Positions 1,061 through 17,195 of a stretch of 40,015 nt of DNA are shown here, piece after piece (the first letter of the stretch is position 1; each line of letters begins with the position of its first letter). Below the pieces are notes generated by a model. It was not told the origin of the DNA. It did not search any database and saw only the letters and a list, made by a program, of their open reading frames with translations. Both the position numbers and the translations under genes were made by a program. Location of the stretch: positions 1 through 40,015 of the forward strand of contig QNES01000015.1 of the NCBI GenBank assembly GCA_003645255.1, in the 5' to 3' direction. The DNA comes from Gammaproteobacteria bacterium (GTDB lineage: Bacteria > Pseudomonadota > Gammaproteobacteria > Beggiatoales > Beggiatoaceae).

Positions 1061-1126
1061 AATAAAAATGTTCTATACAAAGTTCCTCAAATTAAAATTT
1101 ACGCAAGAACTCAGTATAAATGAAAA

Positions 1127-1164
1127 AACCCCCACTGGTTAACGCGAGTCAACCAATGGGGGTT
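1127..1164 (-). terminator. Rho-independent terminator of the idr operon
   Basis: AACCCCCACTGGTT (1127-1140) pairs with AACCAATGGGGGTT (1151-1164). Read on the minus strand, the GC-rich stem is followed by a run of T (complement of 1123-1128). It lies 35 bases downstream of the idrA stop codon, where the operon should end. Confidence 0.85.
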
Positions 1165-1198
1165 CTTATCAACCACCAACCAAAAAAGCGGAAAAAAA

Positions 1199-3895
1199 CT
1201 AGGTGATATTTCTAGGCGCAAACGACATACTGCGGAATTCATTCTTATACTTGGATTCACCGAGCTTATTGATTTTCACGACACCCAGTTTATAGTTGTA
1301 GTTGCCACTGATATTATCCACTACTCTTGGCATGATGGCATTGGAGGGCTGGCGCATGTCAATAAACATGGTGTATAGCACTCCTTTCTTGATATGGGGG
1401 GCTAACACTGCCACAGCTGTCACCGCCGCTTTAGACAACTCAATATGACCGCGTTCCATCAGTGAGGCGAACTGGAAATGATCGTTGTGTACCCCAAGAA
1501 TGGTGTCCTTATGAGCTGCGACTCGATCTGAGTGTAACATGACATAGTCACCTGACTCAATGCCCCGTGCCTTGGCATCATCCGGATGAATTTCCACAAA
1601 ATTTTCAGGCCAACGTTGCGTGATATAAGGACGACGTTGTTGATCGTCAAAGCCGGATTGCCAGACTTCATTGATACGACCGTTGGTCATCCACAGTTCT
1701 TCACCTTGTGGTTTCAACCAAGCCCAGTAATCAGAAAACAGGCTCCAAGGATGTTTCTGAAGGTTGACTTTACCCGTTTGGGTATTGAAATGGCTCATCT
1801 TCTTGTTGACCATATTAGCTCCGCCAGGTCCGTCAGCACCATAACGTTCTGCGGACATTTCGGGTGTCATAAAAATATCATGCAAGCGCTTAGTGCCGGT
1901 TAATTCCCCTTGGTCATTAATAAAGGTGGGGCCTTGGATACCATCTGCACCTAATAAACGCAGTTGTTCATGCAAAGTACGCCCATGACGATGAGCATAG
2001 ACTTTGATCATGTGATAAGCTTTACGTCCGCCACGACTGAAGCGCGAAGATTCTTCGGCGACATCGTTGGAGTTGTTCCAATCAAAGCCATCAAAGCCCA
2101 TCCGTTTTGCTAATTGGGCAATAATCCACCAATCAGGCTTGGCATCACCTGGGGCATCATAGAATTTTTGATAGAGACGCAGACGGCGTTCACCATTCGC
2201 ACGCATAAAATCTTCTTCGCCCCAAGTAGCAGCTGGGAAGATAATATCAGCAAACTGACCCCCAATCGGATTGCGGAGATAAATGTCCTGATCAATGACG
2301 ACCATTCCGCCGGAGTCAGCACGCGCCTTGAGCGTATCAATGATTTCCTGCTTATCATAAGTACGCACTTGATGGGGATTATTAACGACCAATTCTTGAA
2401 ATGCCTTTTGCAGCCCTTGAGAACCACACATGGCTTGAATCCAAGTCGTACCGACGACATGCGCCATACGAGTATGACCAGAAACCAGCCAACGGTCAGT
2501 ATCCAAGGCGCGACGACGACGACCTGGTACCTTTTCAGGTGATTTATTACGTGGCAAACCACCACCACGCTGTCCACCACGTTGATGTCCGCCAAAGCGT
2601 CCGACGACTTGACCAGGGCGACCACCTGCACCGCATATAGTGGCTAAAGAAGAAATGGCATTGGTGTTGCCTGTGTTATTAGACCAATAGAAGCCCTTTT
2701 CAATACCAAAGGAAGACTTAGGACGACTGCCATCCTCTTTAGGTTTGGCTATCCATTCTGCAGCCGTCTTGATTTTTTCTGGATCAACGCCGGTTATTTC
2801 AGCTGCTTTTTCCAATTCATATTCTGGTTGGGAAAGTAACCATTCTTTATAGTCTTCAAAGCCCTTGGTTTGGAATTTGCCCCAAGTGGTTCGCCATTGC
2901 CATGGCGTGTTACGAGTTCCTTGCCCAAAGCCAGAGTCAGACTCCCACTTATTGTTAACCCACTTTTTAAGCCATTCTTGATCTTCCCAACCGTTCTCCA
3001 AGACGATACGAGCAATCGCACCTAATAATACCGTATCCGTACCAGGATAAAGGTCTAAGTGTAAACCACCCATTTTCTTAGCATAGGCAACCCCCGTCGT
3101 TTCGCGTGGATTAAGCATAATCACCTTCATGCCATGCTGGATACCTGGCATGATATGCTGAGTAAAGAGGATAGTCTTGGTTTCATAAGGATCCGTACCA
3201 CAACACATTAGCACATCGGCATTGCCCCAATCATCATAGGAAGGGCCAAAGTTATCAAAACCCGCATCCCTAAATCCAGGCGTGGAGGTAACATCAGAGG
3301 GGGTGTCATGGAAAGTGAAACTCGCTGTGTTGATATGGCGCAATGCGAACTTGGTAATGGCATAAGTATTCTCAATGTACTGGTAAGAATACGTTTTCAT
3401 CGAGTAAGCATTTGCACCGTGTTTAGCAATCACATGCTTGGCCACTTCAGCAGCAATGTCAAGCGCAAAATCCCAGGGCACCGGTTGCAAAATGCCATAA
3501 ATCCGTAACATCGGTGTGGTTAAACGATCACGAGTCGGTGTTTTGGGATTGTAGCATTTTTGTGCAATCAAACCGCCGCGCATACTAGAATCACCGTTAG
3601 TGTTAACCGTTTTCGCATCCTTATTCGGGGTAATGACGACATTATGGGGAACCATGTTGTGCATGACAACATTATGCTGTGCCGGCGCAACCCAGTCTTG
3701 TAGAGCATTGCTGGGAAAATCGATCCCATAAGCATTTTCCGAGGCTTTCGGACCACCGTCACCGGAACCGAGTGGCCAACGATAGACTTTATAAGCACAA
3801 GCCACGATACAATAATCGCAGCAAGTGGTTAGCACGTCAGCATGTTTGGGTGGCAGTGGCACCCGATCTTCAGGTAAATAGTAATTCGTAGACAT
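1199..3895 (-). CDS. idrA: Iodate reductase catalytic subunit IdrA-like (AioA family molybdopterin oxidoreductase)
   Basis: This is a large DMSO-reductase-superfamily subunit binding bis-MGD molybdenum and a [3Fe-4S] cluster. Counted from a TTG-initiated 907-residue frame, the cluster motif is C35-x2-C38-x3-C42 (CDYCIVAC), the AioA-type spacing, followed by the SMRGG segment. I choose the ATG at 3895 (898 residues) because AGGA precedes it. The length exceeds typical AioA (about 830). The block GFGQGTRNTPWQWRTTWG and the di-haem peroxidase neighbours match my recollection of IdrA from iodate-respiring Pseudomonas and Denitromonas rather than arsenite oxidase. There is no signal peptide, so export is presumably by co-translocation with the Tat-signal-bearing Rieske partner encoded just upstream. 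It is the last gene of the operon. AioA family membership is very secure; iodate as substrate is inferred from remembered similarity and gene context. Confidence 0.8.
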   Translation of the reverse strand: MSTNYYLPEDRVPLPPKHADVLTTCCDYCIVACAYKVYRWPLGSGDGGPKASENAYGIDFPSNALQDWVAPAQHNVVMHNMVPHNVVITPNKDAKTVNTNGDSSMRGGLIAQKCYNPKTPTRDRLTTPMLRIYGILQPVPWDFALDIAAEVAKHVIAKHGANAYSMKTYSYQYIENTYAITKFALRHINTASFTFHDTPSDVTSTPGFRDAGFDNFGPSYDDWGNADVLMCCGTDPYETKTILFTQHIMPGIQHGMKVIMLNPRETTGVAYAKKMGGLHLDLYPGTDTVLLGAIARIVLENGWEDQEWLKKWVNNKWESDSGFGQGTRNTPWQWRTTWGKFQTKGFEDYKEWLLSQPEYELEKAAEITGVDPEKIKTAAEWIAKPKEDGSRPKSSFGIEKGFYWSNNTGNTNAISSLATICGAGGRPGQVVGRFGGHQRGGQRGGGLPRNKSPEKVPGRRRRALDTDRWLVSGHTRMAHVVGTTWIQAMCGSQGLQKAFQELVVNNPHQVRTYDKQEIIDTLKARADSGGMVVIDQDIYLRNPIGGQFADIIFPAATWGEEDFMRANGERRLRLYQKFYDAPGDAKPDWWIIAQLAKRMGFDGFDWNNSNDVAEESSRFSRGGRKAYHMIKVYAHRHGRTLHEQLRLLGADGIQGPTFINDQGELTGTKRLHDIFMTPEMSAERYGADGPGGANMVNKKMSHFNTQTGKVNLQKHPWSLFSDYWAWLKPQGEELWMTNGRINEVWQSGFDDQQRRPYITQRWPENFVEIHPDDAKARGIESGDYVMLHSDRVAAHKDTILGVHNDHFQFASLMERGHIELSKAAVTAVAVLAPHIKKGVLYTMFIDMRQPSNAIMPRVVDNISGNYNYKLGVVKINKLGESKYKNEFRSMSFAPRNIT

Positions 3896-3932
3896 CTTAT
3901 GTTTCCTAAGAGTTGGTGTCAAATTTTTCGAC

Positions 3933-3965
3933 AGACCTGACAGTTTTTTTAAACCTGTCAGGTCT
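3933..3965. repeat. GACCTGACAGG palindrome, copy 2, between idrB and idrA
   Basis: AGACCTGACAG and CTGTCAGGTCT form an 11-bp perfect inverted repeat around a T/A-rich loop. It occupies most of the gap between the idrB stop (3975) and the idrA start (3895). Transcripts of the operon must read through it, so the hairpin may affect mRNA processing or relative expression. Copies 1 and 3 are at 495-526 and 17529-17561. Confidence 0.8.
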
Positions 3966-3974
3966 AAACTTTCT

Positions 3975-4544
3975 TTAAGCCGTCATCAGATTCTCATTGC
4001 GACCATACAATAGGCCCATCATACCAACAGCATAGATATCATCACCCTCCAATTCTAGCAAAACTTGGGGTAAACTTTGGTAAGCTTGACCGGAAACGAT
4101 AATACCATGACGGCGCAAGTCATACACTGATAGATGGAAAGGACACTGACCGAGTGTACGTTGATCATCAGTCACTTTATAAGAGCCATGCAATGGTCCC
4201 CCTTGATGGGTACATAGATAGCTAAAAGCTATCACATCGCTTTGGGGACCTATCCCACCACCGGCTTTAACATTACCCATTTTAACCAACATACAGCCAG
4301 CATTTTTGCCATCATCGGGATAATTAAAATTAACCAGTTCATGGTCTTTCAATTCACTCAATTTAGCAATGAGTTTACGTGAATAGCCAACGACTCGGGC
4401 TGATTGAGCTTGTGCCGTACCTGGAAATAAAGTGATCGTACTGACAGCCGCCGCAGTGGCACCGCTGTAAAGCAAAAACTCTCTACGGTTTAACATGCAC
4501 TGACCATGCTCTAAAGCAGATTCGTCATGCGTTTTATTTGTCAT
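3975..4544 (-). CDS. idrB: Rieske [2Fe-2S] small subunit, IdrB/AioB-like, Tat-exported
   Basis: The 189-residue protein has a twin-arginine signal (R20-R21 in NRREFLLYSG, then a hydrophobic stretch and a cleavage-like AQA). Rieske ligands are C111-x-H113 (CTHQGG) and C134-x2-H137 (CPFH). The following GIIVSGQAYQSLPQ matches the GQATQNLPQ region of arsenite oxidase small subunits. It should carry electrons between a periplasmic cytochrome and the molybdenum subunit, and its Tat signal probably exports both. An AGGAG sits 10 bases before the ATG. The gene lies 17 bases after the preceding peroxidase gene and before idrA. Family assignment is firm; iodate specificity is inferred from the cluster. 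Confidence 0.82.
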   Translation of the reverse strand: MTNKTHDESALEHGQCMLNRREFLLYSGATAAAVSTITLFPGTAQAQSARVVGYSRKLIAKLSELKDHELVNFNYPDDGKNAGCMLVKMGNVKAGGGIGPQSDVIAFSYLCTHQGGPLHGSYKVTDDQRTLGQCPFHLSVYDLRRHGIIVSGQAYQSLPQVLLELEGDDIYAVGMMGLLYGRNENLMTA

Positions 4545-4561
4545 TCTTTTGAACTCCTAAT

Positions 4562-5746
4562 TTATTTTTTCAACGCCTGCAATTCGGCTTGAGTGAACAA
4601 TGGCGCGTATTTTGGCAACTTTGGTCTTTCCATGCTAATTTCATCACCTGAAAAAGCTTCTAAGAAGGCAAGGAGGTCTTCTTTCTCCTCATCAGTCAAA
4701 CCCAGCGGTTCGATGAGCAAACTTTTGTTGTCGGGCCAGTCTGTGGTACGACCTTCTTCATCAATTCCGCCTTGATCATAGAAATCCACTACTTCGGACA
4801 ATTCATAAAAGGCACCGTTGTGCATATAAGGAGGTGTGTATAGAGTATAACGCAGAGATGGGGTGCGGAATTTACCCTTGTCCCATTCATTCTTGGTACG
4901 GAAATACAAACCCGCATCCGCTTTAGCAGTGCGATACAGTTCTTCATTAGCTCCCTTCGCATAAAATTCAAAACGGAAGGTTATCTGCGCTAAACCATCT
5001 TCCTCCCAACGTGAAGAAGAAGGAACACCAATATTGTAATAGCTATCATCAGAAGCTAAAGCACCATTATGACAGCGAATACATCCAGCCTTACCGTTGA
5101 ACAATTCCATACCACGAACTTGTTCCTCGCTGAGGGCTTCTTCGTCGCCCTGTAAATATTTATCAAGTGGCGTGTCTCGTTGTACCAAAGTACGCTCAAA
5201 CGCAGCAATGGCCCGCCAAGCATCATCAATCAATGGCCATTCGCTACCGAAAACATCTCTAAAACGCTTACGGTATTCAGGAATTAAAGCGAGACGGGCT
5301 TCCATGATGTCGTTTTCACCATTGCCAGCAACTCCCCCTTTAGCCGCTGCGGGTGCTTGTTTTTCTAAAGAGAGTGCGGCACCTGCCCAAAAGAATTTAC
5401 CATAGTAGGCTGAGTTAATAATTGTCTGACTATTGCGCCAATGGACAGTACCAGGATATCCACGCGAAAAGTTATCACTCCAAGCCCAGCCCTGATCAGG
5501 CTCATGGCAGGTAGAACATGCAGTAGAGGTATCACCACCCACACGCGGATCAAAAAATAGTATTTTGCCTAATTCTACTTTGGCATCCGACTGTTTATTA
5601 TCAGGCGGTATAGGTGGCAGACCCAGAGGTGCCAGTGGTGGAAAAGCGACAGCTTCTTCGGCTGCAATGGCTTGTTGACTCAAGGAACCTGCCAAAACGG
5701 ATGTGATAACCGTTGCAAGCCCAGTGGTTAATAAATAACGATGCAT
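4562..5746 (-). CDS. Di-haem cytochrome c peroxidase/MauG family protein (IdrP-type)
   Basis: The 394-residue protein has an N-terminal signal peptide (to about residue 29) and two c-haem motifs, C77-STCH and C222-IRCH, in the arrangement of bacterial di-haem peroxidases. GKILFFDPRVGGD before the first haem and PYMHNGAFYELSEVVDFYDQGG near the end are typical of this family. In known iodate reductase clusters two such proteins (IdrP1, IdrP2) accompany IdrAB and are proposed to detoxify H2O2 or reactive iodine intermediates. I cannot decide from the sequence which of the two this is. A strong GAGGAGG precedes the ATG. The gene is packed 17 bases before idrB. Confidence 0.85.
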   Translation of the reverse strand: MHRYLLTTGLATVITSVLAGSLSQQAIAAEEAVAFPPLAPLGLPPIPPDNKQSDAKVELGKILFFDPRVGGDTSTACSTCHEPDQGWAWSDNFSRGYPGTVHWRNSQTIINSAYYGKFFWAGAALSLEKQAPAAAKGGVAGNGENDIMEARLALIPEYRKRFRDVFGSEWPLIDDAWRAIAAFERTLVQRDTPLDKYLQGDEEALSEEQVRGMELFNGKAGCIRCHNGALASDDSYYNIGVPSSSRWEEDGLAQITFRFEFYAKGANEELYRTAKADAGLYFRTKNEWDKGKFRTPSLRYTLYTPPYMHNGAFYELSEVVDFYDQGGIDEEGRTTDWPDNKSLLIEPLGLTDEEKEDLLAFLEAFSGDEISMERPKLPKYAPLFTQAELQALKK

Positions 5747-5765
5747 CTTTGTTCCTCCTCAAACA

Positions 5766-6878
5766 TTAATTACGGACATTGCGCCAATCGGCGATAGCTT
5801 CATATTCGTTTGGAAAGGCTTCTGTCCAAACATGTTCTGAGCTTGTCAGAGGTTCCCCAGAAAGAGCCCGTAAAAATTCAACCAGAACTTTTTGTTCCTC
5901 ATCACTCAGATTCAGTGGTTTAAGCAACGGATCCTTATGACTATCTTCACCGCCACCCTGGTTATAAAAAGCCACTACTTCTTCCAGAGTTTTCAACATA
6001 CCATTGTGCATATAAGGAGCTGTGTACTTCAACTCCCGCAGTGCCGGTGTCATAAACTTACCCATGTCGCTTCCATCGGCTTTATGGGTTTGTACATGAG
6101 CTCCTAGATCACGTTTCAGGTTCATATAATTTTCGTTGCCCATAAACATGTTATAAGCAATAAAAGCTTGGTGATTCAATGGTTTAAGGAAAATATCCAG
6201 ATTCTCTGGAACGCCCGTATTGTGAGCTTTACCATCCAAGAGCAAAGGACCATTATGACAGGCGATACAATTTGCCTTACCCTTAAACAATTCCAAACCA
6301 CGTTGAGCAGCATCGGACATCGTTCCCGCATCAAAAGGCGCACCTCTGGAAGTGAGCGTCTTCAGATATTCAGGAATCGCCTTACGCACTTTACCATTGG
6401 AAGGCTCCCCATAGCCAGCTTTTTCAAACATTTCCAGATAAACAGGGTCCTGTTTGACACGCTCCTGCATAATACGCATATCCATATTCATAATATAGTC
6501 TTCCGTGATCATCCCCCGGGTAACATCGTTGAGATTGGTACCGATGCGTCCGTCATGCATCCATACTTTTTTATGGGCTGAATTAATGACACTAGAAGCG
6601 TTGCGAAAGTGACCATTACCCGGATAACCTGGTGAAAGGGCTTCTTTAGAACTAAAGCCATTATCAGGTTGGTGACAAGTAGCACAAGAAATCGCGGCAT
6701 CCCCCGATAATCGAGCATCAAAAAATAACCGCTTACCCAGTTCTGCCTTGGCTTTGTCGATTTTAATTTCAGGCAAGGGTCCAATGTCTGGTGCGGTATA
6801 GCCTACATTGGCAGTCAATGCCATAGTAATGCCTATTGATAGCGTCATCAAACGACGCTGAACAGTGCGTTTATTCAT
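5766..6878 (-). CDS. Di-haem cytochrome c peroxidase/MauG family protein (IdrP-type), second copy
   Basis: Starting at the ATG at 6878, which follows AAGGAGTG, the protein has 370 residues, a signal peptide ending near AYT-like GYTAP (about residue 28) and two haem c motifs: C65-ATCH and C204-IACH. PYMHNGMLKTLEEVVAFYNQGGG matches the C-terminal family signature. A frame extends upstream to 6926, but those codons overlap the end of the small gene at 6911-7051 and lack a ribosome site. It is paralogous to the gene 19 bases downstream, with a distinct middle section. Together they fit the IdrP1/IdrP2 pair of iodate reductase loci. Confidence 0.85.
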   Translation of the reverse strand: MNKRTVQRRLMTLSIGITMALTANVGYTAPDIGPLPEIKIDKAKAELGKRLFFDARLSGDAAISCATCHQPDNGFSSKEALSPGYPGNGHFRNASSVINSAHKKVWMHDGRIGTNLNDVTRGMITEDYIMNMDMRIMQERVKQDPVYLEMFEKAGYGEPSNGKVRKAIPEYLKTLTSRGAPFDAGTMSDAAQRGLELFKGKANCIACHNGPLLLDGKAHNTGVPENLDIFLKPLNHQAFIAYNMFMGNENYMNLKRDLGAHVQTHKADGSDMGKFMTPALRELKYTAPYMHNGMLKTLEEVVAFYNQGGGEDSHKDPLLKPLNLSDEEQKVLVEFLRALSGEPLTSSEHVWTEAFPNEYEAIADWRNVRN

Positions 6879-7253: not shown

Positions 7254-8024
7254 CTACTTCTTCTTGTTCTTGTATACAAAGTTCACGCTTTCCGTTTGAC
7301 CCGCTTCAACGGTCAATATTTGTTTTTTCGGATCTTTCAAATAACCGTGCCAAGCCTTCACTTTATACTTACCCGCAGGAATATCCTCAATCTGATAAGT
7401 GCCGTCTTTAGCCACAACAGCATAATACGGGTTCTTAGCAACAAAAACAAAGCCGTGCATGAAGTCATGCTGATCGCACTCCACTTTCATGCTAACCCCT
7501 CTTTTGAGCTTGATTTCCTTAGTCACTTCGCTGTTTTGATTGGGCTGGCTGATATTAATCGTCGTTTTCTTAGCACGCCCAATCATTTCATAAGTATGGA
7601 TGTTATGCGCTACCGCATCAGAATTTGTCGCCGTGAGTTCACCTTTGTTAGCCATGATCGAAAAAAACGGCATAAATTCGCACCCTTTTTGATCAAGCGT
7701 GGTGTTCTTTTCGCTTTCAATCCATGCTTTGCCCTCTTTCACCTTAAGTAAATAAACCACGACATCGTTGAGTGCTGAACCATTCACTTTGACATACTGA
7801 ATGGTACGAGGACCCTTACCACATACAGCCTCGTCTTTAATGCTAGTGTACACTTTATCGTGTTTCTTGGCATCTGCTTCTGAACCCGCGAAGGTGACTT
7901 CACCTTTAATACTACCCCCATTGCTAACTGACACGACTTTATAACCAGCCGCATAACTTGATACCGGCAAACACAGAACCGATGCCATCAGCGAACTTAA
8001 AACGACAGATTGTGTTTTTTTCAT
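7254..8024 (-). CDS. Periplasmic cupredoxin-like protein with C-terminal carboxypeptidase-regulatory-like fold
   Basis: The 256-residue protein has a Sec signal peptide (cleavage near SYAAG, about residue 26). The region NSDAVAHNIHTYE, followed by VECDQHDFMHGFVFV, supplies His, Cys, His and Met in plastocyanin-like order, suggesting a type I-like copper site. The C-terminal third (DGTYQIEDIPAGKYKVKAWHGY) reads as a carboxypeptidase-regulatory beta-sandwich. Proteins of this architecture often appear beside periplasmic c-type cytochrome systems as methylamine-utilisation-like proteins. A GAGGAGT lies 7 bases before the ATG. It is upstream of the IdrP-like genes in the same orientation, so an electron-carrier role to the peroxidases or IdrB is plausible but inferred. 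Confidence 0.7.
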   Translation of the reverse strand: MKKTQSVVLSSLMASVLCLPVSSYAAGYKVVSVSNGGSIKGEVTFAGSEADAKKHDKVYTSIKDEAVCGKGPRTIQYVKVNGSALNDVVVYLLKVKEGKAWIESEKNTTLDQKGCEFMPFFSIMANKGELTATNSDAVAHNIHTYEMIGRAKKTTINISQPNQNSEVTKEIKLKRGVSMKVECDQHDFMHGFVFVAKNPYYAVVAKDGTYQIEDIPAGKYKVKAWHGYLKDPKKQILTVEAGQTESVNFVYKNKKK

Positions 8025-8104
8025 ATAGACTCCTCATTAAGGTTGTTGATAAAGTTGATGATAAAAAAACTATTCAGGGCTTGAGCAAGGAATTGCCCCA
8101 TAAA

Positions 8105-8133
8105 AAATCCGATTTTTTGGAAAAATCGGATTT
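8105..8133. repeat. ATCCGATTTTT palindrome
   Basis: AAATCCGATTTTT and AAAAATCGGATTT face each other around a short centre. This is one member of the AGAAAT...ATTTCT palindrome family found in gaps across the window (8155-8187, 14383-14415, 26302-26333, 38582-38614). Confidence 0.8.
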
Positions 8134-8154
8134 CTATTGCCAAAAGTAAGTATG

Positions 8155-8187
8155 AGAAATACTATTTTTGGCAAAAATAGTATTTCT
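8155..8187. repeat. AGAAATACTATTTTT palindrome
   Basis: A 33-base near-perfect palindrome: AGAAATACTATTTTT is complementary to AAAAATAGTATTTCT around GGC. It belongs to the same family as 8105-8133 and sits only 21 bases from it. Confidence 0.85.
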
Positions 8188-8199
8188 TTAGTGCTAGTA

Positions 8200-8250
8200 A
8201 GGTGGGTAGAGCGATAGCAATACTTCGTATTGCTACACTAACCCCACCAT
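8200..8250. repeat. Nested hairpin GGTGGG...CCCACC
   Basis: The outer arms GGTGGG and CCCACC enclose a perfect inner stem TAGCAATAC/GTATTGCTA. A T-tract follows on the plus strand. No plus-strand gene precedes it, so this is more likely a dispersed repeat than a dedicated terminator. It lies in the 365-base gap between 8024 and 8390. Confidence 0.6.
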
Positions 8251-8389
8251 TTTTTCTAAATTTGCGTTTCAGGATGCAAATGGGCTTCAGGCTATGAAAA
8301 TAATAGATTTTGAGTCGTCAGTAAAGGCAACCACATATTTTAAATAGCAAACAATGGGCGACAATTCAGAAACCATTCAGCCTATCCAC

Positions 8390-9310
8390 TTAAAAAAGTG
8401 TCAGATTATCTGTTTTAAGAATAGTTTTCATATTATTGCCATATTTTCGTTTCACTTCCTCTTGGAATTTTTCAATGGCTGAGGGATGATTCTTCAAGAA
8501 CCATTCAATATGATTTTTAAGATAATTCTCTCTCATTTCAAAATCATTTAAATCATTAGGTACTCTTTTCATGCGAGGATCAATACTATCAAATCCATTA
8601 AAAGGCTGGGCAAGACGTTCTTTGGTCATTCGGACATAGTCAGGGTTTAGCTCAAAACCAGTCGCATTTCGTTCTAACTGCTGGCAAACTCTAACCGTTG
8701 TTCCACTACCAGAAAAGGGATCAAATATTTGTTCGCCTTTATCACTTGATGCGAGTATCATTCTTTCAATGAGTCCTTCAGGTTTTTGAGTAGGGTGTTT
8801 TTGTCTATTTTCATTGCAATAATGTACATGAGAAAATTTCCAGACATCACCAGGGTTAGCACCACGCATATTATTACGTGAGCGATAAAACTTCTGCGGA
8901 ACTCTGATACTATCTAAATTAAATTTAAAATGATTTGATTTAGTGAACATTAATATATCATCATGGCGTGGTGATAATCCTTTAGTTTTACCTATACCTT
9001 GAGTATAATGCCAACAAATCCAGCTATTAAAAACTAATTTCAATTTAACCTCTAAAATATCATAAATATAAGAAATAAAACGTACACCCATGAAAACATA
9101 GATCGTGCCGGTGCTTTTTAAAATACGCTTTGCCTCACCTAACCAAGTTTTTGAGAATGAAATATAATCATCAAACTCCTTGAAATCATGATTGTTTCCA
9201 TAATTTTTCCCTAAATTGTAAGGGGGATCTGCAATAATAACATCAATGGATTCTGATGGAATTTCTTTTAAAAGCGTCATGGCATCGCCTTGAATAATTT
9301 TTTGTTCCAT
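8390..9310 (-). CDS. Site-specific DNA methyltransferase, beta class (N6-adenine or N4-cytosine)
   Basis: The 306-residue protein has catalytic motif IV DPPY at 28-31, ahead of the AdoMet-binding motif I DPFSGSGTT at 197-205, the order of beta-class amino-methyltransferases. PTQKPEGLIERMI between them is typical. The DPPY form is commoner in adenine methylases. GGGTGA precedes the ATG. A C-terminal extension of about 70 charged residues (from about 235) has no motif I recognise. No restriction gene adjoins it, so it is an orphan methyltransferase or the survivor of an R-M system. Together with the toxin-antitoxin genes upstream it separates two halves of the respiratory locus. Confidence 0.88.
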   Translation of the reverse strand: MEQKIIQGDAMTLLKEIPSESIDVIIADPPYNLGKNYGNNHDFKEFDDYISFSKTWLGEAKRILKSTGTIYVFMGVRFISYIYDILEVKLKLVFNSWICWHYTQGIGKTKGLSPRHDDILMFTKSNHFKFNLDSIRVPQKFYRSRNNMRGANPGDVWKFSHVHYCNENRQKHPTQKPEGLIERMILASSDKGEQIFDPFSGSGTTVRVCQQLERNATGFELNPDYVRMTKERLAQPFNGFDSIDPRMKRVPNDLNDFEMRENYLKNHIEWFLKNHPSAIEKFQEEVKRKYGNNMKTILKTDNLTLF

Positions 9311-9634
9311 TATTCACCCTTAATCCAATTATATTGATTAGCATATTTCAACCATCCAAAAAAACCGTAGAGTTAAAATGGGCAGACGTAGAATGGCAAG
9401 GTCAACAAACCCATTATAGCAAGTTGCAAATCCCCGCCTATTTTTAACTTTTTATCAAGAAATTTCATCAAGTTGCAAAAATATAGCAAAACCAATGTAA
9501 AATTATAATAAATTGTTGAATTTGTTCAACAACTGTGGCAAAATTAGCTGGCATATTTCAATACTCAATTTTCTCAACTTTCTCAATAAAGTTAGCGGGC
9601 GTAGAATGCTATCTTATGAAAATTTGATGTTTTT
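9311..9634. other. Gap between methyltransferase and toxin genes
   Basis: I see no gene here. A small perfect palindrome GTTGAATTTGTTCAAC lies near 9514-9530. The phrase AGTTGCAAA appears twice (near 9421 and 9472). The rest is AT-rich without recognisable signals. Confidence 0.4.
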
Positions 9635-9886
9635 TTATTTTAGCATTCTTTCATATTCATCATGCGTACCAATCCATACCCAAAAAAAATCATTATTCTC
9701 TTCAATAGCAAGTGCTCTATGGTTAATATCAACCCTTACAGACCAAAACTTTCCAACTTTTTTGAAATGTAAGGAAGGATGCTGATAATTTTCCTTTAAT
9801 ATACCAAAGTTTCTTGTAGCCAATTTTTGAGTAGAAATCGGCAACCTTTCATAGTACTCCCAAAACCGGGTGGTCGTTTTATGCAT
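9635..9886 (-). CDS. RelE/ParE-like toxin
   Basis: The 83-residue protein begins MHKTTTRFWEYYERLP and contains HPSLHFKKVGKFWSVRVDINHRALAIEENNDFFWVWIGTHDEYERML. The pattern of an R/D-rich strand (SVRVDINHRAL) followed by a hydrophobic FFWVWIGTHDEY segment is typical of RelE/ParE-fold type II toxins related to HigB/YoeB. The upstream gene's stop codon directly abuts this ATG (TAAATG on the minus strand), so the two are translationally linked. Likely an mRNA interferase or gyrase inhibitor; which one is not visible. Confidence 0.72.
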   Translation of the reverse strand: MHKTTTRFWEYYERLPISTQKLATRNFGILKENYQHPSLHFKKVGKFWSVRVDINHRALAIEENNDFFWVWIGTHDEYERMLK

Positions 9887-10252
9887 TTAAATATCCTTCA
9901 ATAAGCCCTGTTTTTTTTCAAAAAGTGCTTCCTCTATTAAAAAATCCAATTTTCCGGATTCAGCATCTTTTTCTATTTGCTTATCCCATTTATCCCATTC
10001 GGCTAAATCATGAATAACTTTTATGATTTCTTCAGAATGAGATGGTTTTAGTTCAAGAATGCCCTTTAATATGATAAGACTAAAATATTCTGGAAGTTGA
10101 AACCATGTTGGGTTGCTAAAGGTATTAGGAATATTATGCTTATTATCATTCCAACGTACAGCAATACGCATTTTTTCATCCCATTGTCCCCAAGCAATCG
10201 AAAAATTGCCGTCATCGTAGATAATGTTATGAACAGAAAAGTTAATTGACAT
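9887..10252 (-). CDS. Putative antitoxin partner
   Basis: This gene immediately precedes the RelE/ParE-like toxin. The ATG at 10252 follows GGAGAATAAA and gives 121 residues; an open frame extends to 10276 without a good ribosome site. The C-terminus EKDAESGKLDFLIEEALFEK resembles antitoxin tails that carry a degradation- and toxin-binding segment (SGKLDxLIEEA). The N-terminal half (MSINFSVHNIIYDDGNFSIAWGQWD, then MRIAVRWND) looks like a separate small domain. No DNA-binding fold is obvious. Pairing is inferred from gene order and the abutting stop and start. Confidence 0.6.
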   Translation of the reverse strand: MSINFSVHNIIYDDGNFSIAWGQWDEKMRIAVRWNDNKHNIPNTFSNPTWFQLPEYFSLIILKGILELKPSHSEEIIKVIHDLAEWDKWDKQIEKDAESGKLDFLIEEALFEKKQGLLKDI

Positions 10253-10304
10253 TTTATTCTCCAGTTTATCTAACATTTACTCAAATAAATCATTGATAAC
10301 GAAT

Positions 10305-10330
10305 GTAGGGTGGAAAATAAAACCCACCCA
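10305..10330. repeat. GGGTGG/CCCACC hairpin after the tri-haem gene
   Basis: GGGTGG (10308-10313) pairs with CCCACC (10323-10328) across an A/T loop. On the minus strand it lies just downstream of the stop at 10343, so it may act as a terminator, though no clean U-run follows. The same GTGGGTTTTATTTTCCACCC-type phrase is a common dispersed repeat. Confidence 0.5.
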
Positions 10331-10342
10331 CTGTTCATCATA

Positions 10343-12745
10343 TCAAACCACTTTACGCCGCTGACTCCTCACCAAAATTATTCCCAGCAAAAAGCTCAAC
10401 AAACCAATCCCCAACGGCATTCCATAAACCCTATTGTAGTCAATTTGGGGTGGGAGCAGTAACCAATACCAACTCGTCAAAGTATGTTTGGAGCCCATTT
10501 CACCATTACTGCCATCCCAATTAGCAAAGGAAATCGGGATAAATTGCCCTTCTGTGAATGAAACATCACCCGATTCACCGCCGCCTGATCGAGGTAATTT
10601 CATAAGTACGCGCCAGCGTCCATGTTCCCATGTACCAGTCGCCACTAGGCTATTATTGTCAGACCGAAGTTCGAGTGGATTATCAGGGCCTTTTGCGTGA
10701 AAAATCATAGACTTAGGTGCAGCTTCTGGTTCAATACTGCCCGCATTCCAATACCAAATCGTGGTGGGATTAGCACTGTCACCGTGGCGATAGAGTGGCT
10801 TTTTGACGATAGGCGTGGTTTCAAAAGAGCCTACTTTTGGAAGTTGAATGGCAAACGCATCCGAATGCATATCAATCTCTTCATCTTGAATGCCATCAGA
10901 AACAGGTTCACCCGGGCGGCTATCGGTCCTATCATTCATTTCTAGCAAAAAGGCAATATCGTTTTTATTATATAGCACTCGCGCCGTAATAGCATTAGAC
11001 AAAGGGGTAAATAGGCGATCTGCTTTAATGATATTGGGGACTAAATGTACTGTTGTTGCGGGAGCTTGTTCCCAGACAGCATCATCCACCGTTGTTGGCA
11101 AGGCACCGTCAAGATTTATCCCTTTTATCACCGTACTTTCACCTGGCGGTGTAACCTTTTCGCGCAGTGAATAGACATAATTGGCAATATGCCAACGATC
11201 TTCCAGACTGACCGGATCAGGATCATCACTGGTTGAACGGTGCGCGGGCATCGGGGTCCCAGGAATACCGATAGAAAGTCGGGTGTAAATGTTCTGGATC
11301 GTTTTTTCCTGACTCTTTTCATCGCTCCCAGATACATTACTCACGCGCCAAGTCCAAGGTTTCATTAAATCACGAGGCCAAATACGGTATTCCCAGTCAT
11401 CAGCAAGACGTTTACCAGAGGTAATATTGCCACGCCCAGTATGACCATGACATTGTTCACAGGTTTTCTCAAAGGCTATTTTGCCTTGAGCGATGGAATC
11501 TTCTGAATATGGAATATGGCCCTCAATAGGTTCATTCTCCGTAATCCGTACCAAGTCATCTTTGATATAACGACCTTCATCGTCAAAATCTTCATCTTCA
11601 TCAGCCTCTTCAGGTGCCCAAGTTGCCGAAATATCGAAATATTTGAGCACTGGGATGAGGCGATTAATTTGTTCATCTGTCAGCAAAGTTTTCCATGCAG
11701 GCATACTGGTACCCTGCAAACCATGCTTGATGGTATTGAATAAATCTTCATCTCGTATTGGTAATTCACCAGGGGAAGTTTTATATTTGAACATACCCAA
11801 GGTAAAATCGCGGGGTCTTGGATAAAGAAAATCTGCCGCTGAACCATCCCCTGCCCCTTCTTCACCATGACATACTGCGCAGCGGAACTGATAAATCTCC
11901 GCCCCCGTCATTTTGGCGCGTTGGGATTGAATGTCATTTTTCATGCCTGTCACGGCTTTGGACACTTTTGGATCCCATATACGTGGCACTTGTCCCACAT
12001 AATCATATAGAAAAGTGATAACCTGCCAAACCTCTTCTTCACTTAACATCTCGTGCCAAACGGGCATCGCAGAATTCCAAGGAGTGCCTTCTTTAGGCAA
12101 GCCCGGTCCACCTGTGGTAATGCGCCAAAATAGAAACGCTTCTTGTAATTGGGCGATAGTGCCTACATCTTGGAAATTGGCTGGTAGCGGATTAAAGCCC
12201 TCAGCAAAATGTCCACGACCATCCAATAAATCACCATGACAGTAGAAGCAATTTTGAAAATAAACTTGACTACCTGCTTGTACGGCTTCTTGATACATTT
12301 CGTTAGCTGCTTCAGTATCACTTTCGGCTAAAACTTGAGTACGAATTGGATTTTCAAGCGTGGTTAAATTATAAGATTGATTATAAACTCGCAAATTTGA
12401 AGGCGGTGCTGGGTGAACTTGCCGAAGTTCCACAGGCGATTCAAATGACGGTTTAATTATATTATAAGTCGTTAAAGCGAATAATGCGGGAATAAAAATC
12501 AAGAAAGCCCAGCGAATAGCCCATTTATTATCATCACGCAGCACCGCTTTAATCGGTGCTTTAAATTCGTTCCAACGCTGATCATCATAAGAATAGTATA
12601 ATAACACACCGATAACGGTGATGAGCATAAATTCAATGAGCAAGGATTGCGGCATCACAGGTGGAAATGCGTTATCAAAAATAAGATAGGCACAGATAAT
12701 GACTAAGACTGCTTGCCAAAATGCCGATATGCGAAAATTTTTCAT
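10343..12745 (-). CDS. Membrane-anchored tri-haem cytochrome c fused to ethylbenzene-dehydrogenase gamma-like haem b domain
   Basis: The 800-residue protein has two or three N-terminal helices (about 10-25, 37-52, 77-95). Three cytochrome c modules follow, with haem motifs C166-FYCH, C289-AVCH and C429-EQCH and candidate Met ligands (AMPVWHEM, SMPAWKTL, TPMPAHRS). An acidic linker lies near 380-390. The region from about 540 to 765 (DDAVWEQAPATTVHLVP..., MNDRTDS..., DAFAIQLP..., GTWEHGRWRVLMKLPR) resembles the EB_dh/DOMON-like haem b domain of the gamma subunits of ethylbenzene dehydrogenase, nitrite oxidoreductase and related enzymes. A final helix (about 776-795) ends RSQRRKVV. It probably relays electrons between a membrane quinol-linked module and periplasmic acceptors. 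It lies 26 bases downstream of an unrelated methyltransferase-nuclease gene that seems to have been inserted before it. Confidence 0.78.
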   Translation of the reverse strand: MKNFRISAFWQAVLVIICAYLIFDNAFPPVMPQSLLIEFMLITVIGVLLYYSYDDQRWNEFKAPIKAVLRDDNKWAIRWAFLIFIPALFALTTYNIIKPSFESPVELRQVHPAPPSNLRVYNQSYNLTTLENPIRTQVLAESDTEAANEMYQEAVQAGSQVYFQNCFYCHGDLLDGRGHFAEGFNPLPANFQDVGTIAQLQEAFLFWRITTGGPGLPKEGTPWNSAMPVWHEMLSEEEVWQVITFLYDYVGQVPRIWDPKVSKAVTGMKNDIQSQRAKMTGAEIYQFRCAVCHGEEGAGDGSAADFLYPRPRDFTLGMFKYKTSPGELPIRDEDLFNTIKHGLQGTSMPAWKTLLTDEQINRLIPVLKYFDISATWAPEEADEDEDFDDEGRYIKDDLVRITENEPIEGHIPYSEDSIAQGKIAFEKTCEQCHGHTGRGNITSGKRLADDWEYRIWPRDLMKPWTWRVSNVSGSDEKSQEKTIQNIYTRLSIGIPGTPMPAHRSTSDDPDPVSLEDRWHIANYVYSLREKVTPPGESTVIKGINLDGALPTTVDDAVWEQAPATTVHLVPNIIKADRLFTPLSNAITARVLYNKNDIAFLLEMNDRTDSRPGEPVSDGIQDEEIDMHSDAFAIQLPKVGSFETTPIVKKPLYRHGDSANPTTIWYWNAGSIEPEAAPKSMIFHAKGPDNPLELRSDNNSLVATGTWEHGRWRVLMKLPRSGGGESGDVSFTEGQFIPISFANWDGSNGEMGSKHTLTSWYWLLLPPQIDYNRVYGMPLGIGLLSFLLGIILVRSQRRKVV

Positions 12746-12771
12746 TTAAGTTTCCCTATGTTTTTTGTAAA

Positions 12772-14235
12772 TTAAAACAGTCCTTTTTGATCTGTTCTTT
12801 TTCCAAGTGTTTTAGCACGCTTAAATGTGATATTGTCCTTGGGCAACATCAATTGTTTACCCTTAAAAAATTCGGCTAAAGTCATCATTTGTAACTTAGG
12901 ATAAGTGAAACCGGCTATTTCAAAATATCCAACTTGAACCACCGTTTCTAACATCGGTTTAGTTGGTGTATTCCTGGTGAGCAATACCCCTAACTCACAT
13001 TTTTGTTTAGTCATGGCACCTAGCAAAGCGTCGATATCTTTTGACTGTACTTTGCCTCCTTTGACTTGAAAAGCCGCTTTAATGGGATCATCTGCTTTAG
13101 GTATAGCATACATACCAATACCATCAATGCCCTTATCCGCGCCTTTCTTTCCAAAAGTTGTCGCAAAAACATCAAACTCGGTTAGCCACCAATCCTCGAA
13201 AGCAAAGGGGTTATGTTCCCATAATTGAATGGCACTCGCCTCATCACTTGGTACACCTCGGATTTCAAACGGAGTAAGTTCTTTTTTATAGCTGTCTTTT
13301 AAACGATGCTTGATAACATTTATGGCTATCGAAGAAATATCAATTCCTATCCATTGTCGTTTTAAACTTTCAGCGGCATCAACGGTTGTGCCGCAACCAC
13401 AAAAGGCATCTAAAATAATGTCACCCTCGTTAGAATTAGCTTGAATAACACGTTCAAGTAAAGATTTAGGTTTTTGGGTAGGGTATCCCAAAGCTTCTTT
13501 TGATGAATTGTTTATTTTATCTAAGTTCCAAACATCATCAACTGGCTTACCGTAAGACATTGCTTCATCTAAAAACCGTTTTACCCTCTTACCACCACCT
13601 GCATCGGATAAAACATACTTTTTCCCATTTTCATCTTGGCGTACCTTTTGCCTTCTAAGTTTTATATATTCTTCTTCAGACTCCCAACCAATAGCAAAAG
13701 AGTTAAAATTTGGTTTAGTTTGTTTAGTATAGAATAAAATAATATCGTGTCTACTACTGAATGAACTTTTCAATTTAGCATTCCAGCCTGAATAATGCCA
13801 TATAATTTCATTCCTAAAATTCTTAACGCCAAATATCAAATCAAGAACCGTTTTCAAATAATGACTCGCCGTCGGATCACAATGCAGGTAAAAACTCCCT
13901 GTTGATTTTAATACCCGATGCAATTCCAAAATTCGCAGACTCATCATCACCAGGTAAGGAAATACATGCGGTGCGGCTTCCTGATAAACTCTCAGTAAGT
14001 TATAAAGCTTTTCATTGGGGACCGTATGAAGTTCAAGCAAAGAGTCGCCTATGTTCTTTAAGGACCAAGTATCTTCAAAAGCGACTCGCTGTGTTTGAAT
14101 CTCTTTGTCATCGAAGAAAACGTTATAATTGCGTTTAGAATTAAAGGGCGGATCAATGTAAATGAGATCTATCGATTCGTCTTTAACGTTGTCACGCAAA
14201 ACGTTTAGGCAATCGCCTAAGTATAGGTGATTCAT
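12772..14235 (-). CDS. DNA methyltransferase fused to Mrr-like PD-(D/E)xK nuclease domain
   Basis: The N-terminal 310 residues form a beta-class methyltransferase: motif IV DPPF at 28-31, PTQKPKSLLERVI near 252-264, and motif I DAFCGCGTT at 276-284. After about 335 a second domain begins (EHNPFAFEDWWLTEFDVF). It contains GADKGIDGIGMY with D371, and AAFQVKGGKV with Q390-x-K392, the D...QxK arrangement of Mrr-type PD-(D/E)xK endonucleases. A single chain may thus both modify and cleave DNA. Cleavage might alternatively depend on modification or be inactive; sequence alone cannot decide. It lies between two cytochrome genes of one respiratory operon, and repeats fill the gap upstream (14236-14443), suggesting insertion. 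Confidence 0.85.
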   Translation of the reverse strand: MNHLYLGDCLNVLRDNVKDESIDLIYIDPPFNSKRNYNVFFDDKEIQTQRVAFEDTWSLKNIGDSLLELHTVPNEKLYNLLRVYQEAAPHVFPYLVMMSLRILELHRVLKSTGSFYLHCDPTASHYLKTVLDLIFGVKNFRNEIIWHYSGWNAKLKSSFSSRHDIILFYTKQTKPNFNSFAIGWESEEEYIKLRRQKVRQDENGKKYVLSDAGGGKRVKRFLDEAMSYGKPVDDVWNLDKINNSSKEALGYPTQKPKSLLERVIQANSNEGDIILDAFCGCGTTVDAAESLKRQWIGIDISSIAINVIKHRLKDSYKKELTPFEIRGVPSDEASAIQLWEHNPFAFEDWWLTEFDVFATTFGKKGADKGIDGIGMYAIPKADDPIKAAFQVKGGKVQSKDIDALLGAMTKQKCELGVLLTRNTPTKPMLETVVQVGYFEIAGFTYPKLQMMTLAEFFKGKQLMLPKDNITFKRAKTLGKRTDQKGLF

Positions 14236-14288
14236 ATTTTTTAGATTATATAGGTATAGCGTTTCCCTTTTTAGTTAAATACATATCT

Positions 14289-14315
14289 TGTAGGGGCAAA
14301 CCTGTGTGTTTGCCC
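14289..14315. repeat. GTAGGGGCAAACCTGTGTGTTTGCCC repeat unit
   Basis: The arms GGGCAAAC and GTTTGCCC form a hairpin. Related units are at 569-594, 19317-19342, 19365-19390, 29312-29338, 29357-29383, 32233-32260, 32730-32759 and 32782-32810, in both orientations. Confidence 0.75.
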
Positions 14316-14443: not shown

Positions 14444-15268
14444 TTAGTCATTAATTTGTTCCGCCAAGAATTGTACAATCATTTCCAATTCTTTCACTCT
14501 CATTTTATCGGCAAAATTGCCGGGCATCATAGGAGAGTAACCTTCAGTGATGACAGCATTAGGTTCAAGAATACTTTGTCGAATTTCGTCTGCGCTTAAA
14601 CGACTCCCAACCGTTCGCAAATCAGGTCCAACCGGTGATTCCGTTTCTAATATAGAATGACAAGCGGTGCAACCAAATTGTCCAATAGCTTCTTGTGCTG
14701 TTTCGGCGATGGGTGCAGGGGCAGTCGTTTGCTTTTCTTCGGTCGTTGTGGGAACTGCTTCTGCACTTGGCAAAGGCACCGTGACCGGATTACCATCCTT
14801 AGCCTGCATATAAGCAATCACGGCATTCATTTCAATTTCTGACAATTGAATAGGGGGCTTGTCAATAGCTGGCATGGGAGAAACGCTATCATTAGTCCCT
14901 TTTTTACCAAAACCTTTGACCACATAGAGGCTGGGTTGTCGCATGGATTCTTGCAAATAAGCTTCAGCCTCTTTCGAGTCACCTTGATAGCGGCTATCAG
15001 CCAGCCGATCATTAGCGGTTTCTACCATATTCATTTTTAAAATATCAGGGGCGCGTCCCATATCATTATGGCATAAGGTGCAAGTCCCTTTACCTTTAAA
15101 CAATTCTTCACCCAATGCCACAAAAGATTCTTCGGTGAAGGCACCCAAATCAAGCGTCTTTTCAACAGGTGCCTCACCTTCTATTTGCGGCAATAGGTTA
15201 GTCACTAAAGTAAATCCCAATGTCAGCGTTAAACTGAACCCTAATACTTTGATCAGTACCGGCATCAT
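14444..15268 (-). CDS. Membrane-anchored di-haem cytochrome c
   Basis: The 274-residue protein has an N-terminal hydrophobic segment (residues 5-26) that anchors it or acts as an uncleaved signal. It has two cytochrome c domains: C63-TLCH (FKGKGTCTLCH, with PMPAID as a likely distal Met) and C200-TACH (GQFGCTACH, with MMPGNF as a likely Met). A Pro/Thr/Glu-rich linker (about 160-192) joins them. Its ATG overlaps the stop of the bd-like gene by 4 bases (ATGA), indicating translational coupling and probable complex formation. It likely accepts electrons from the bd-like subunit and passes them to the tri-haem protein or periplasm. Confidence 0.85.
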   Translation of the reverse strand: MMPVLIKVLGFSLTLTLGFTLVTNLLPQIEGEAPVEKTLDLGAFTEESFVALGEELFKGKGTCTLCHNDMGRAPDILKMNMVETANDRLADSRYQGDSKEAEAYLQESMRQPSLYVVKGFGKKGTNDSVSPMPAIDKPPIQLSEIEMNAVIAYMQAKDGNPVTVPLPSAEAVPTTTEEKQTTAPAPIAETAQEAIGQFGCTACHSILETESPVGPDLRTVGSRLSADEIRQSILEPNAVITEGYSPMMPGNFADKMRVKELEMIVQFLAEQIND

Positions 15269-17181
15269 GTACCTCCTGTTTGTGGTGGTATCTGCTGAGT
15301 ATCAGATAACGAAGCCAGCCAGAAAATGAACAAAATAATCAATAAAAACAAGATAGTAACAATCGTAATCATATTACCGGCATAACCAATCGCCGGAATA
15401 TAATTGTCGGGCGAATTATCTTTCATCACTGTATAGACATGCCAATGAGTACGTACACTGGAACGCACATAGCCCATCAATGCCATGAGCCAAGTAAATG
15501 CAATCGGCAGCGCAAATAGGGCATATTGTGAACGGTCACTGACTTTACCCCATTGAGCAGGTAATCTCTTGGCATTTTTGAACATTAAGCTATCAATCAC
15601 GACTCCACTGATAATGACCACTAAGGTTGACACCACTTGCATTACGCTAGAGCCAACTTTATACACCGTATTCGTGAAATAACCATAGTACACCCCCGCA
15701 AAAATCACATTAACAATAGCTACCACATAAATGGCTACCATGAGTGCATTACCAGCCTTTGCCCAAGAAACGGTCGTCACTTTGTCAGCACGGCGATATA
15801 ATTGGAAGGACAAGAAGGTGAAAATCAGCATCAAGTTCACCGCAATATTTTTTGCAGGCATGATACCCAGGGGACCCAATAAATGATGATGACTGCCCCC
15901 TAAAGTCGCAACCTCAGAAGGGCTTAATATTAAAGTATGGGGTGTCACCCAAATGAGAAAGCCTACGACTAATACAAAGGCAATATATTTGATAAGCCAA
16001 GTATAACGCTTAGAACCTTCAGTGCGTGACATACCGGACCATAGATAATAATTAGCCGCTAATAAAATCGTGCCTATGAGTACCGCTTGCACTACGAATA
16101 GCCAAGCTAAAATACCCCCCATTGCGGTAATACCCATTTGTTGCGAGTATGCGTAAATTTCTGCCATGAGCCAATATCCAGCAAAGGGTAAGGGCAAAAA
16201 GGCTAAAATCGCAATAAAATTAGAGGTATAACCCATCCAGTCATAATGCGCTTTTTCCTGAGCCGTTTTGGCACTTAGGAATTTATAGGCTGCATAAGCA
16301 CCCACTATCGCGCCACCAAAGGCAACATTGGCAATAAAACGGTGTAAATTCAATGGATTCCATAAGGGACCTTTCATAACTTCCCAAATATTTCCAACCA
16401 CAGCACCCACTTCATTAACCCCAGACGGTGCCATCATAAAGGAAGCCCATGAGTTAGCCACGACTAATAAGGTTGTTCCAACGACGTTGAGCAATAAACC
16501 AATCGTCAGATGGGTCCATTTAGCGTTACCATAGCGCATGGCATTCCAGCCATAATAGTAAATATAGAGTAATGCGCTTTCTGCAAAGAATAGCCCTGCA
16601 TAGATTAAGGTTTGTGTATTAAATACACGCATCATGTAAGCCATAAACTGGGGATAGAGTAGGAATAGGGCGAAAGCCAAGGTTCCCCCAAATAAGGCTG
16701 TAATGGAATATGCACTTAAACTGATCTTCATAAATTCGTGCGCCATATCGTCATAACGCAAGTCACCCGTTTTAAATCCAATTAATTCTATAACAAGGAC
16801 AAACAGCGGGACTGCTAATACGAAGGCAGCAAAAAATAGGTGCAATTGAGCAATAATCCATACCACCGAGCGACTACTGAAACCCATATTGGGGTAGTCA
16901 CTGCGCTTAATTTGGGGTGCTGGGATAAGTTCTTTTTCTTGGTGTTCTTGGGAGGTTCCACTCATGCCCTGCATCGTTTCTTTAATCACCTGTTTAGGGT
17001 CCCCAACGAGCCGCACCTGACCTATGGGTTGAATACGTCCGGCAATAGATTCTGTATCCATTGTTTCTACTATCACATTGGATACCAGATTAAACGGTGA
17101 GCTAAAGTTGAATCCGACTATGAGTAATAGTAGAGTCCATATTCCTGCCCACTTTACGATTATTTGTTGTTTTTTATACAT
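15265..17181 (-). CDS. Cytochrome bd subunit I-like membrane protein
   Basis: The ATG at 17181 gives 638 residues; a TTG at 17187 is possible. One N-terminal helix is followed by a periplasmic stretch of about 80 residues (DTESIAGRIQPIGQVRLVG...), then about 13 further helices. CydA-like features include a helix-embedded His in WIIAQLHLFFAAF, a glutamate in FFAESALLYIYYY and a His in NLHRFIANVAFGGAIVGAY. The quinol-binding Q-loop is missing and the GRQPW motif is replaced around AYSQQMG, unlike true quinol oxidases. A SHHHLLG cluster lies in an extra helix pair. No CydB gene follows; instead a di-haem cytochrome c overlaps its end. This suggests an alternative bd-like complex, comparable to the bd-like proteins described in nitrite oxidisers, that exchanges electrons with cytochrome c. 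Substrate and direction are unknown. Confidence 0.75.
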   Translation of the reverse strand: MYKKQQIIVKWAGIWTLLLLIVGFNFSSPFNLVSNVIVETMDTESIAGRIQPIGQVRLVGDPKQVIKETMQGMSGTSQEHQEKELIPAPQIKRSDYPNMGFSSRSVVWIIAQLHLFFAAFVLAVPLFVLVIELIGFKTGDLRYDDMAHEFMKISLSAYSITALFGGTLAFALFLLYPQFMAYMMRVFNTQTLIYAGLFFAESALLYIYYYGWNAMRYGNAKWTHLTIGLLLNVVGTTLLVVANSWASFMMAPSGVNEVGAVVGNIWEVMKGPLWNPLNLHRFIANVAFGGAIVGAYAAYKFLSAKTAQEKAHYDWMGYTSNFIAILAFLPLPFAGYWLMAEIYAYSQQMGITAMGGILAWLFVVQAVLIGTILLAANYYLWSGMSRTEGSKRYTWLIKYIAFVLVVGFLIWVTPHTLILSPSEVATLGGSHHHLLGPLGIMPAKNIAVNLMLIFTFLSFQLYRRADKVTTVSWAKAGNALMVAIYVVAIVNVIFAGVYYGYFTNTVYKVGSSVMQVVSTLVVIISGVVIDSLMFKNAKRLPAQWGKVSDRSQYALFALPIAFTWLMALMGYVRSSVRTHWHVYTVMKDNSPDNYIPAIGYAGNMITIVTILFLLIILFIFWLASLSDTQQIPPQTGGT

Positions 17182-17195
17182 AATCAAGTTAAATT

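Follow-up and report, generated by a model that had tools for sequence, protein, structure and literature searches.

A 40,015-base stretch of a Beggiatoaceae genome (GenBank assembly GCA_003645255.1, contig QNES01000015.1; hereafter the window) very probably encodes an iodate reductase of the Idr type, as judged from its sequence. The window is the entire contig C15 of a 4.4-Mb assembly that is 96.7% complete and divided into 313 contigs. Its idr genes code for the catalytic subunit IdrA, the Rieske partner IdrB, and two dihaem peroxidases, IdrP1 and IdrP2. Upstream of them lie genes resembling the accessory cluster of nitrite oxidoreductase (NXR), which we call the module. The Idr cluster is a further case of a known gene set; the new part is the module, which is outside coordinates 1199-6878. 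The best overall explanation, and a reasonably probable one, is that Idr and an upstream module feeding it form one chain.

Identity of the reductase

The idr core runs on the minus strand from 6878 to 1199 and is transcribed head to tail in the order idrP2, idrP1, idrB, idrA, with about 15-80 bases between coding regions and a terminator at the end. IdrA carries CDYCIVAC at residues 26-33 (C26-C29-C33) and a Ser 70 residues further (about residue 104), which gives the [3Fe-4S] motif CX2CX3CX70S published for IdrA of Azoarcus DN11. IdrB has a twin-arginine leader, RREFL, and the Rieske motif CxHx20CxxH; DN11 IdrB has CxHx18CxxH. Two CxxCH motifs and a PF03150 CCP_MauG domain are found in IdrP1 and again in IdrP2. 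The first-pass annotation of this DNA had described an AioA-like protein with C-x2-C-x3-C, a Rieske protein with a signal for twin-arginine translocation (Tat), and two dihaem peroxidases in a tight operon. We recovered all four genes as placed, including the 898-residue length of IdrA. The terminator, put at 1127-1164 in that annotation, was recovered at 1124-1167, and none of 200 shuffles equalled its stability.

General family models name IdrA an arsenite oxidase because Idr and Aio belong to one superfamily. The protein scored 424 bits against TIGR02693 (cut-off 359) and 112 bits against TIGR02694 (cut-off 96), both arsenite-oxidase superfamily models that do not discriminate Idr from Aio. 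Its NCBIfam matches included no ArrA or ArxA model. The IdrA tree comprised 62 sequences with a 54-row Idr clade; the IdrA of Pseudomonas SCT, Denitromonas IR-12, Azoarcus DN11, and Roseovarius azorensis, and ArxA sequences, are outside its sampling. The window IdrA falls inside the Idr clade, apart from AioA, with a Shimodaira-Hasegawa-like approximate likelihood ratio (SH-aLRT) of 100 for the Idr/Aio split. For the AioA part of the phylogeny that the first-pass annotation had proposed as a check, the tree thus places the protein with Idr; ArxA is not represented in it. Within the clade it groups with sequences from Thiomargarita, Thioploca, Parabeggiatoa, and Halobeggiatoa. The closest IdrA, from a Thiotrichaceae/Thiomargarita metagenome-assembled genome (MAG), is 93% identical over 898 columns.

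AioA has an active-site glutamate, which we take to be position 203 in A. faecalis numbering. It is kept in all 8 AioA-type sequences, whereas each of the 117 Idr sequences has serine (Ser204 in the window), aspartate, or alanine in its place. Despite the loss of the glutamate, Idr retains the cluster-binding residues and the His-Arg-His set (H196, R433, and H437 in the window IdrA).

The P-P-B-A gene order noted in the first-pass annotation is right but not peculiar to this locus. It was present in 67 of the 67 relatives with enough upstream DNA and has been reported for SCT, IR-12, and Ca. M. iodofontis. By a published rule, idrABP1P2 synteny distinguishes Idr from Aio. Clade membership, loss of the glutamate, and both peroxidases in canonical order argue for the iodate-reductase-type reading that had been made of the locus.

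An electron-transfer module upstream of idr

The module extends from 7254 to 17187 on the same strand as idr and comprises genes for a cupredoxin-like protein and three cytochromes: a trihaem one of 800 residues, a dihaem cytochrome c, and a bd-like protein of the membrane. The first-pass annotation had the idr core right but overlooked this linked module. Its span of 1199-6878 likewise holds for the core, but the functional cluster probably extends past it, up to about 17187 or 18728.

The profile of the long cytochrome matches EbdC, the ethylbenzene dehydrogenase gamma subunit (2ivf_C), and nitrite oxidoreductase subunit C (7b04_C). A structure model of this protein had a mean predicted local distance difference test score (pLDDT) of 54.8 and was not used. 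The bd-like protein resembles CydA in its N-terminal half only, with a PF01654 match over residues 105-359 that ends at profile position 251 of 418. Its best Protein Data Bank fold matches are CydA chains, and the haem-ligand-equivalent H116 and H282 are invariant. About 14 helices are predicted from a model with a mean pLDDT of 67.5, used for topology only. No CydB-like gene was recognized among the open reading frames (ORFs) of the window.

To place the module among other bacteria, we compared its occurrence with that of IdrA. Among 368 other sampled Gammaproteobacteria, Idr is encoded in 14, the module in 13, and both in 11 (Fisher p 7.7e-17), spread over nine families; one further IdrA match, in G146, is AioA-like. 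Nine of 36 other Beggiatoaceae genomes encode Idr, nine the module, and seven both (p 1.4e-4). The Fisher tests take no account of shared ancestry, and the spread over nine families is a better argument for the association than the p values. In several of these genomes Idr and the module are on different contigs, so co-occurrence is more than adjacency.

Where the two are linked, gene order is shared. Among 50 genome-contig loci with at least 5.5 kb upstream of idrP2, 15 have the three module cytochrome genes there in the same order; loci of Thiodiazotropha, T. nelsonii, and some Alphaproteobacteria are among them. In G160, G262, and G360, which are distant Idr genomes, the module is no more than about 15 kb from idr, and two separate genes encode the long cytochrome. 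The cupredoxin gene immediately precedes idrP2 in the window, as it does in two MAGs of the Thiomargarita group and three distant Idr genomes (L029, L030, L175, L177, L196). In one linked locus (L178, G262), universal-stress/PCP_red and radical-SAM/PCP_red proteins are encoded right after the module, at 8561-12041, and HEAT-repeat proteins are encoded close to the module or idr in L177 and L180. Plasmids searched for the bd-like protein gave no match, and for the long cytochrome partial matches only, at about 30% identity.

As a control we used a type II molybdoenzyme encoded beside the module of G050. Its occurrence overlaps the module in G050 only among the 368 class genomes, and within Beggiatoaceae in 4 of 9 module genomes compared to 7 of 9 for Idr. 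It does not track the module and was rejected as the main module partner. The G050 locus (L173, G050:C18, 1531-15537) has no Idr; its module adjoins genes for this dimethyl sulfoxide reductase-family enzyme (alpha, beta, delta, and haem subunits) and a cupredoxin. The genome of the window encodes a relative with about 40% identity, divided between two contig ends (G000:C114:13138-14733 and G000:C131:21-1949).

Distribution of Idr

IdrA is also encoded in Alphaproteobacteria and SAR324. Its tree shows two branches: a marine one, where the window sequence falls, and another that includes copies on Azonexus and Thiothrix plasmids. Next to these plasmid idrA genes are genes for MoaA and a c-type cytochrome, matching the neighbours described for Pseudomonas SCT, and the window IdrA is about 50% identical to this branch. 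We dropped an attempt to place the R. azorensis IdrA (99.4 kDa) by molecular mass, as both branches fit within 1 kDa. A search of viral contigs found no IdrA relatives, and a literature search found nothing linking Beggiatoa, Thiomargarita, or Thioploca with iodate reductase.

Two loci encode idrAB-like pairs without adjoining peroxidase genes (L198, G018:C219, 8774-12139; L193, G379, 8553-12035). Their large subunits have 949-973 residues and are distant (53-56% identity), possibly representing the 'unknown clade' between Aio and Idr. In Candidatus Thiomargarita nelsonii, the L198 pair is a second copy besides the canonical idr. A further locus (L199, G018:C484, 376-6961) has a 3,295-bp unit twice in tandem; the copies are 99.97% alike, and each contains an IS4-type transposase along with a decayed fragment from the 3' end of idrA (75% nucleotide identity). 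Similar fragments are found on other contigs of G018 and of G033.

Features of the window

The two insertions within the module (Table 1) were not seen in relatives whose neighbourhoods were read. An anti-phage defence role for their methyltransferases, beyond that of lone modification genes, was rejected because the matches shown are methyltransferase models only. Elsewhere in the window, a group II intron domain V region is found at 41-120, at the contig start and about 1.1 kb downstream of idrA. Adjoining the pilQ gene cluster, at 20129-26254, is a gene for a secreted protein of 2,041 residues that is rich in repeats and matched no NCBIfam model. The gene at 33137-35749 codes for a penicillin-binding protein 1A (PBP1A)-like protein with a long, repetitive serine/arginine-rich C-terminus (SSRSSRSSR).

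Table 1. Features of the idr locus and its upstream region, with positions in the window.
Feature	Coordinates	Strand	Description
Intrinsic terminator 3' of idrA	1124..1167	-	20-pair stem, minimum free energy -34 kcal/mol, z = -6.97
idrA	1199..3895	-	Catalytic subunit with molybdenum bis(molybdopterin guanine dinucleotide), 898 aa from ATG
idrB	3975..4544	-	Rieske [2Fe-2S] subunit, Tat signal, 189 aa
idrP1	4562..5746	-	Dihaem CCP/MauG-family peroxidase, 394 aa
idrP2	5766..6878	-	Dihaem CCP/MauG-family peroxidase, 370 aa (ATG start), first idr-core gene
Secreted cupredoxin-like protein	7254..8024	-	Carboxypeptidase-regulatory-like C-terminus; copper-site motif CDQHDFMHG judged by eye
Insertion between module genes	8390..10276	-	DNA adenine methyltransferase (8390-9310) and small ORFs 9635-9886, 9887-10276
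Trihaem membrane cytochrome c (alt-NxrC-like)	10343..12745	-	800 aa; fused to C-terminal EB_dh / NxrC-type haem-b domain
Insertion between module cytochrome genes	12772..14235	-	DNA methyltransferase fused to Mrr-like endonuclease domain
Dihaem cytochrome c	14444..15268	-	Module gene, 274 aa
CydA-superfamily bd-like membrane cytochrome	15265..17187	-	~14 predicted helices; likely ATG start two codons inside
Putative outer-membrane porin	17574..18728	-	Beside idr at ~61% identity only in Beggiatoaceae (L031, L033, L040)

Proposed electron transfer and alternatives

In the proposed mechanism, IdrB would take IdrA across the membrane by Tat and hand electrons to its Mo site. The Mo site of periplasmic IdrAB would reduce iodate to hypoiodous acid or iodide, with IdrP1 and IdrP2 clearing peroxide or other oxidizing by-products. 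This chemistry is carried over from the enzymes of Pseudomonas SCT, Denitromonas IR-12, and Azoarcus DN11. The IR-12 idr cluster is said to have no quinone oxidoreductase (PMC8692401). In the window, electrons from quinol or cytochrome c could enter a complex of the bd-like protein, dihaem cytochrome c, and trihaem NxrC-like cytochrome. From there the cupredoxin, or else a soluble cytochrome, would relay them to IdrB, and IdrB to the Mo site of IdrA. The module would be an Idr-associated form of the NXR accessory cluster, probably working in the direction from quinol (or cytochrome c) to a high-potential acceptor. We rate the chances that it feeds Idr as a membrane conduit as about even. We infer this role, the direction of electron flow, and the joining of module and Idr into one chain from linkage, co-occurrence, and the parallel with NXR. 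More tentatively, the bd-like/alt-NxrC complex could serve high-potential periplasmic molybdoenzymes in general, as the membrane complex at which they dock and exchange electrons. It would take NXR electrons in nitrite oxidizers and deliver quinol electrons to IdrAB in Idr bacteria. Iodate reduction in giant sulfur bacteria and lucinid-clam symbionts would then be a respiration that conserves energy and has a complex dedicated to it.

Several points weigh against a single Idr-module chain reducing iodate. The module is missing beside idr in 35 of the 50 loci (two keep part of it). Sedimenticola hydrogenitrophicus, for one, has Idr, but no module was seen adjoining it. Idr genomes G246, G346, G412, G618, and G721 lack it altogether, and G050 and G228 encode the module without Idr. 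Given these exceptions in both directions, the module is not indispensable to Idr, although in certain lineages it may assist Idr or extend its function. The tie to the characterized IdrA proteins (SCT, IR-12, DN11, and R. azorensis, outside the tree) is through published synteny and neighbourhood only. Homology of the module to the NXR cluster is drawn from the published description and the NxrC profile match, with the Nitrospira, Nitrospina, and Kuenenia bd-like sequences outside the comparison. Quinol is a putative donor to the bd-like protein, and the canonical quinol loop is absent from the NXR-type bd-like proteins described so far (PMC3578206). Iodate reduction by this organism and its family is likewise a prediction from sequence.

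The chief rival accepts Idr and takes the module for an independent cytochrome c oxidase (an OR-N-like oxygen reductase) or an NXR-type complex that merely shares the respiratory island and a microoxic niche. OR-N bd-like proteins are thought to use oxygen to oxidize cytochrome c, and the mismatches between Idr and module genomes fit such independence, as does the presence in the host genome of NarG and the split type II molybdoenzyme. However, the co-occurrence with Idr is far over background in nine families and includes unlinked cases, the distribution of the type II enzyme does not follow that of the module, and a related cluster in anaerobic anammox bacteria implies that oxygen reduction is not its general role. 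We consider this rival unlikely, though a serious one. Equally doubtful is that the Idr-type enzyme serves to detoxify iodate or reactive iodine, or to balance redox, rather than to support growth by respiration. Iodate reduction by idr-bearing marine aerobes mostly under static conditions, the average of only 0.45 micromolar total dissolved iodine in seawater, and a canonical NarG for nitrate in the host genome are consistent with that role. In contrast, idr has been retained in several large sulfur-bacterium genera and is paired with a membrane electron module, both of which hint that it is coupled to respiratory electron transport.

It is highly improbable that the locus encodes an AioA-like pair oxidizing arsenite or acting on another oxyanion, with the peroxidases incidental. 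Arsenite oxidases are the best named family models, and the arsenite-pocket His196, Arg433, and His437 are still present. However, the clade is separate from AioA, the pocket glutamate is gone from every Idr sequence, both peroxidases accompany the pair in all testable relatives, and the window ORFs include no recognizable arsenic genes. Least probable of all is a binning artefact that brought in a contig from a different organism. The assembly is split into many contigs, but this one also carries pilus-assembly, PBP1A, and plsY-, yebC-, and ruvC-like genes. Its PBP1A is closest to one from the same genus (71%) and next to those of other Beggiatoaceae, and two other same-genus assemblies hold an IdrA 93% identical. 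The family assignment of the host was taken from named relatives, and the nearest records are Thiomargarita sp. and Thiotrichaceae MAGs, bearing out an earlier guess of a sulfur bacterium.

The locus adds iodate to the candidate electron acceptors of Beggiatoaceae, mat-formers on the sulfidic seafloor, and with it a possible microbial route by which iodine is released where oxic and sulfidic zones meet. The module is a defined candidate gene set for the question of how IdrAB is supplied with electrons. The poorly understood bd-like/alt-NxrC complex of nitrite oxidizers also gains a second context, one open to genetics in culturable hosts.

Comparison with known systems

AioAB arsenite oxidase shares with Idr the superfamily, a [3Fe-4S] cluster, and a Rieske partner. 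The window Idr differs in its identity of about 30%, its missing active-site glutamate, its extra peroxidases, and its separate clade. Like CydA, subunit I of cytochrome bd oxidase, the bd-like protein has the characteristic N-terminal half and haem-ligand histidines; unlike CydA, it has extra C-terminal helices, a PF01654 match confined to part of its length, and no CydB partner gene in sight. Judged by a CydB partner and a quinol-binding loop, it does not qualify as a canonical cytochrome bd quinol oxidase.

The known idrABP1P2 clusters of Pseudomonas sp. SCT, Denitromonas sp. IR-12, and Azoarcus sp. DN11, and that reported for Roseovarius azorensis, resemble the window locus in the four genes and their order, CX2CX3CX70S, the IdrB Tat leader, and the dihaem peroxidases. 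The window locus differs in belonging to the marine branch, at about 50% identity to the branch with SCT-like neighbours, and in having an NXR-type module upstream. No paper treating iodate reductase and nitrite oxidoreductase together was among the best literature matches.

The NXR accessory cluster, found from Nitrospira to anammox bacteria, encodes a 14-helix bd-like protein, an alternative NxrC with c haems, more c cytochromes, and cupredoxins; a role as membrane anchor or quinone link for NXR has been proposed for it (PMC3578206, PMC6606698). The module resembles the clusters of Nitrospira, Nitrospina, and Kuenenia in its kinds of genes: a bd-like protein of about 14 predicted helices with conserved haem-b ligand histidines, c haems and an NxrC-type haem-b domain in one protein, a dihaem c, and a cupredoxin. 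It differs in that two genes are fused to code for one 800-residue protein, and in that it goes with Idr rather than with NXR or a similar type II enzyme.

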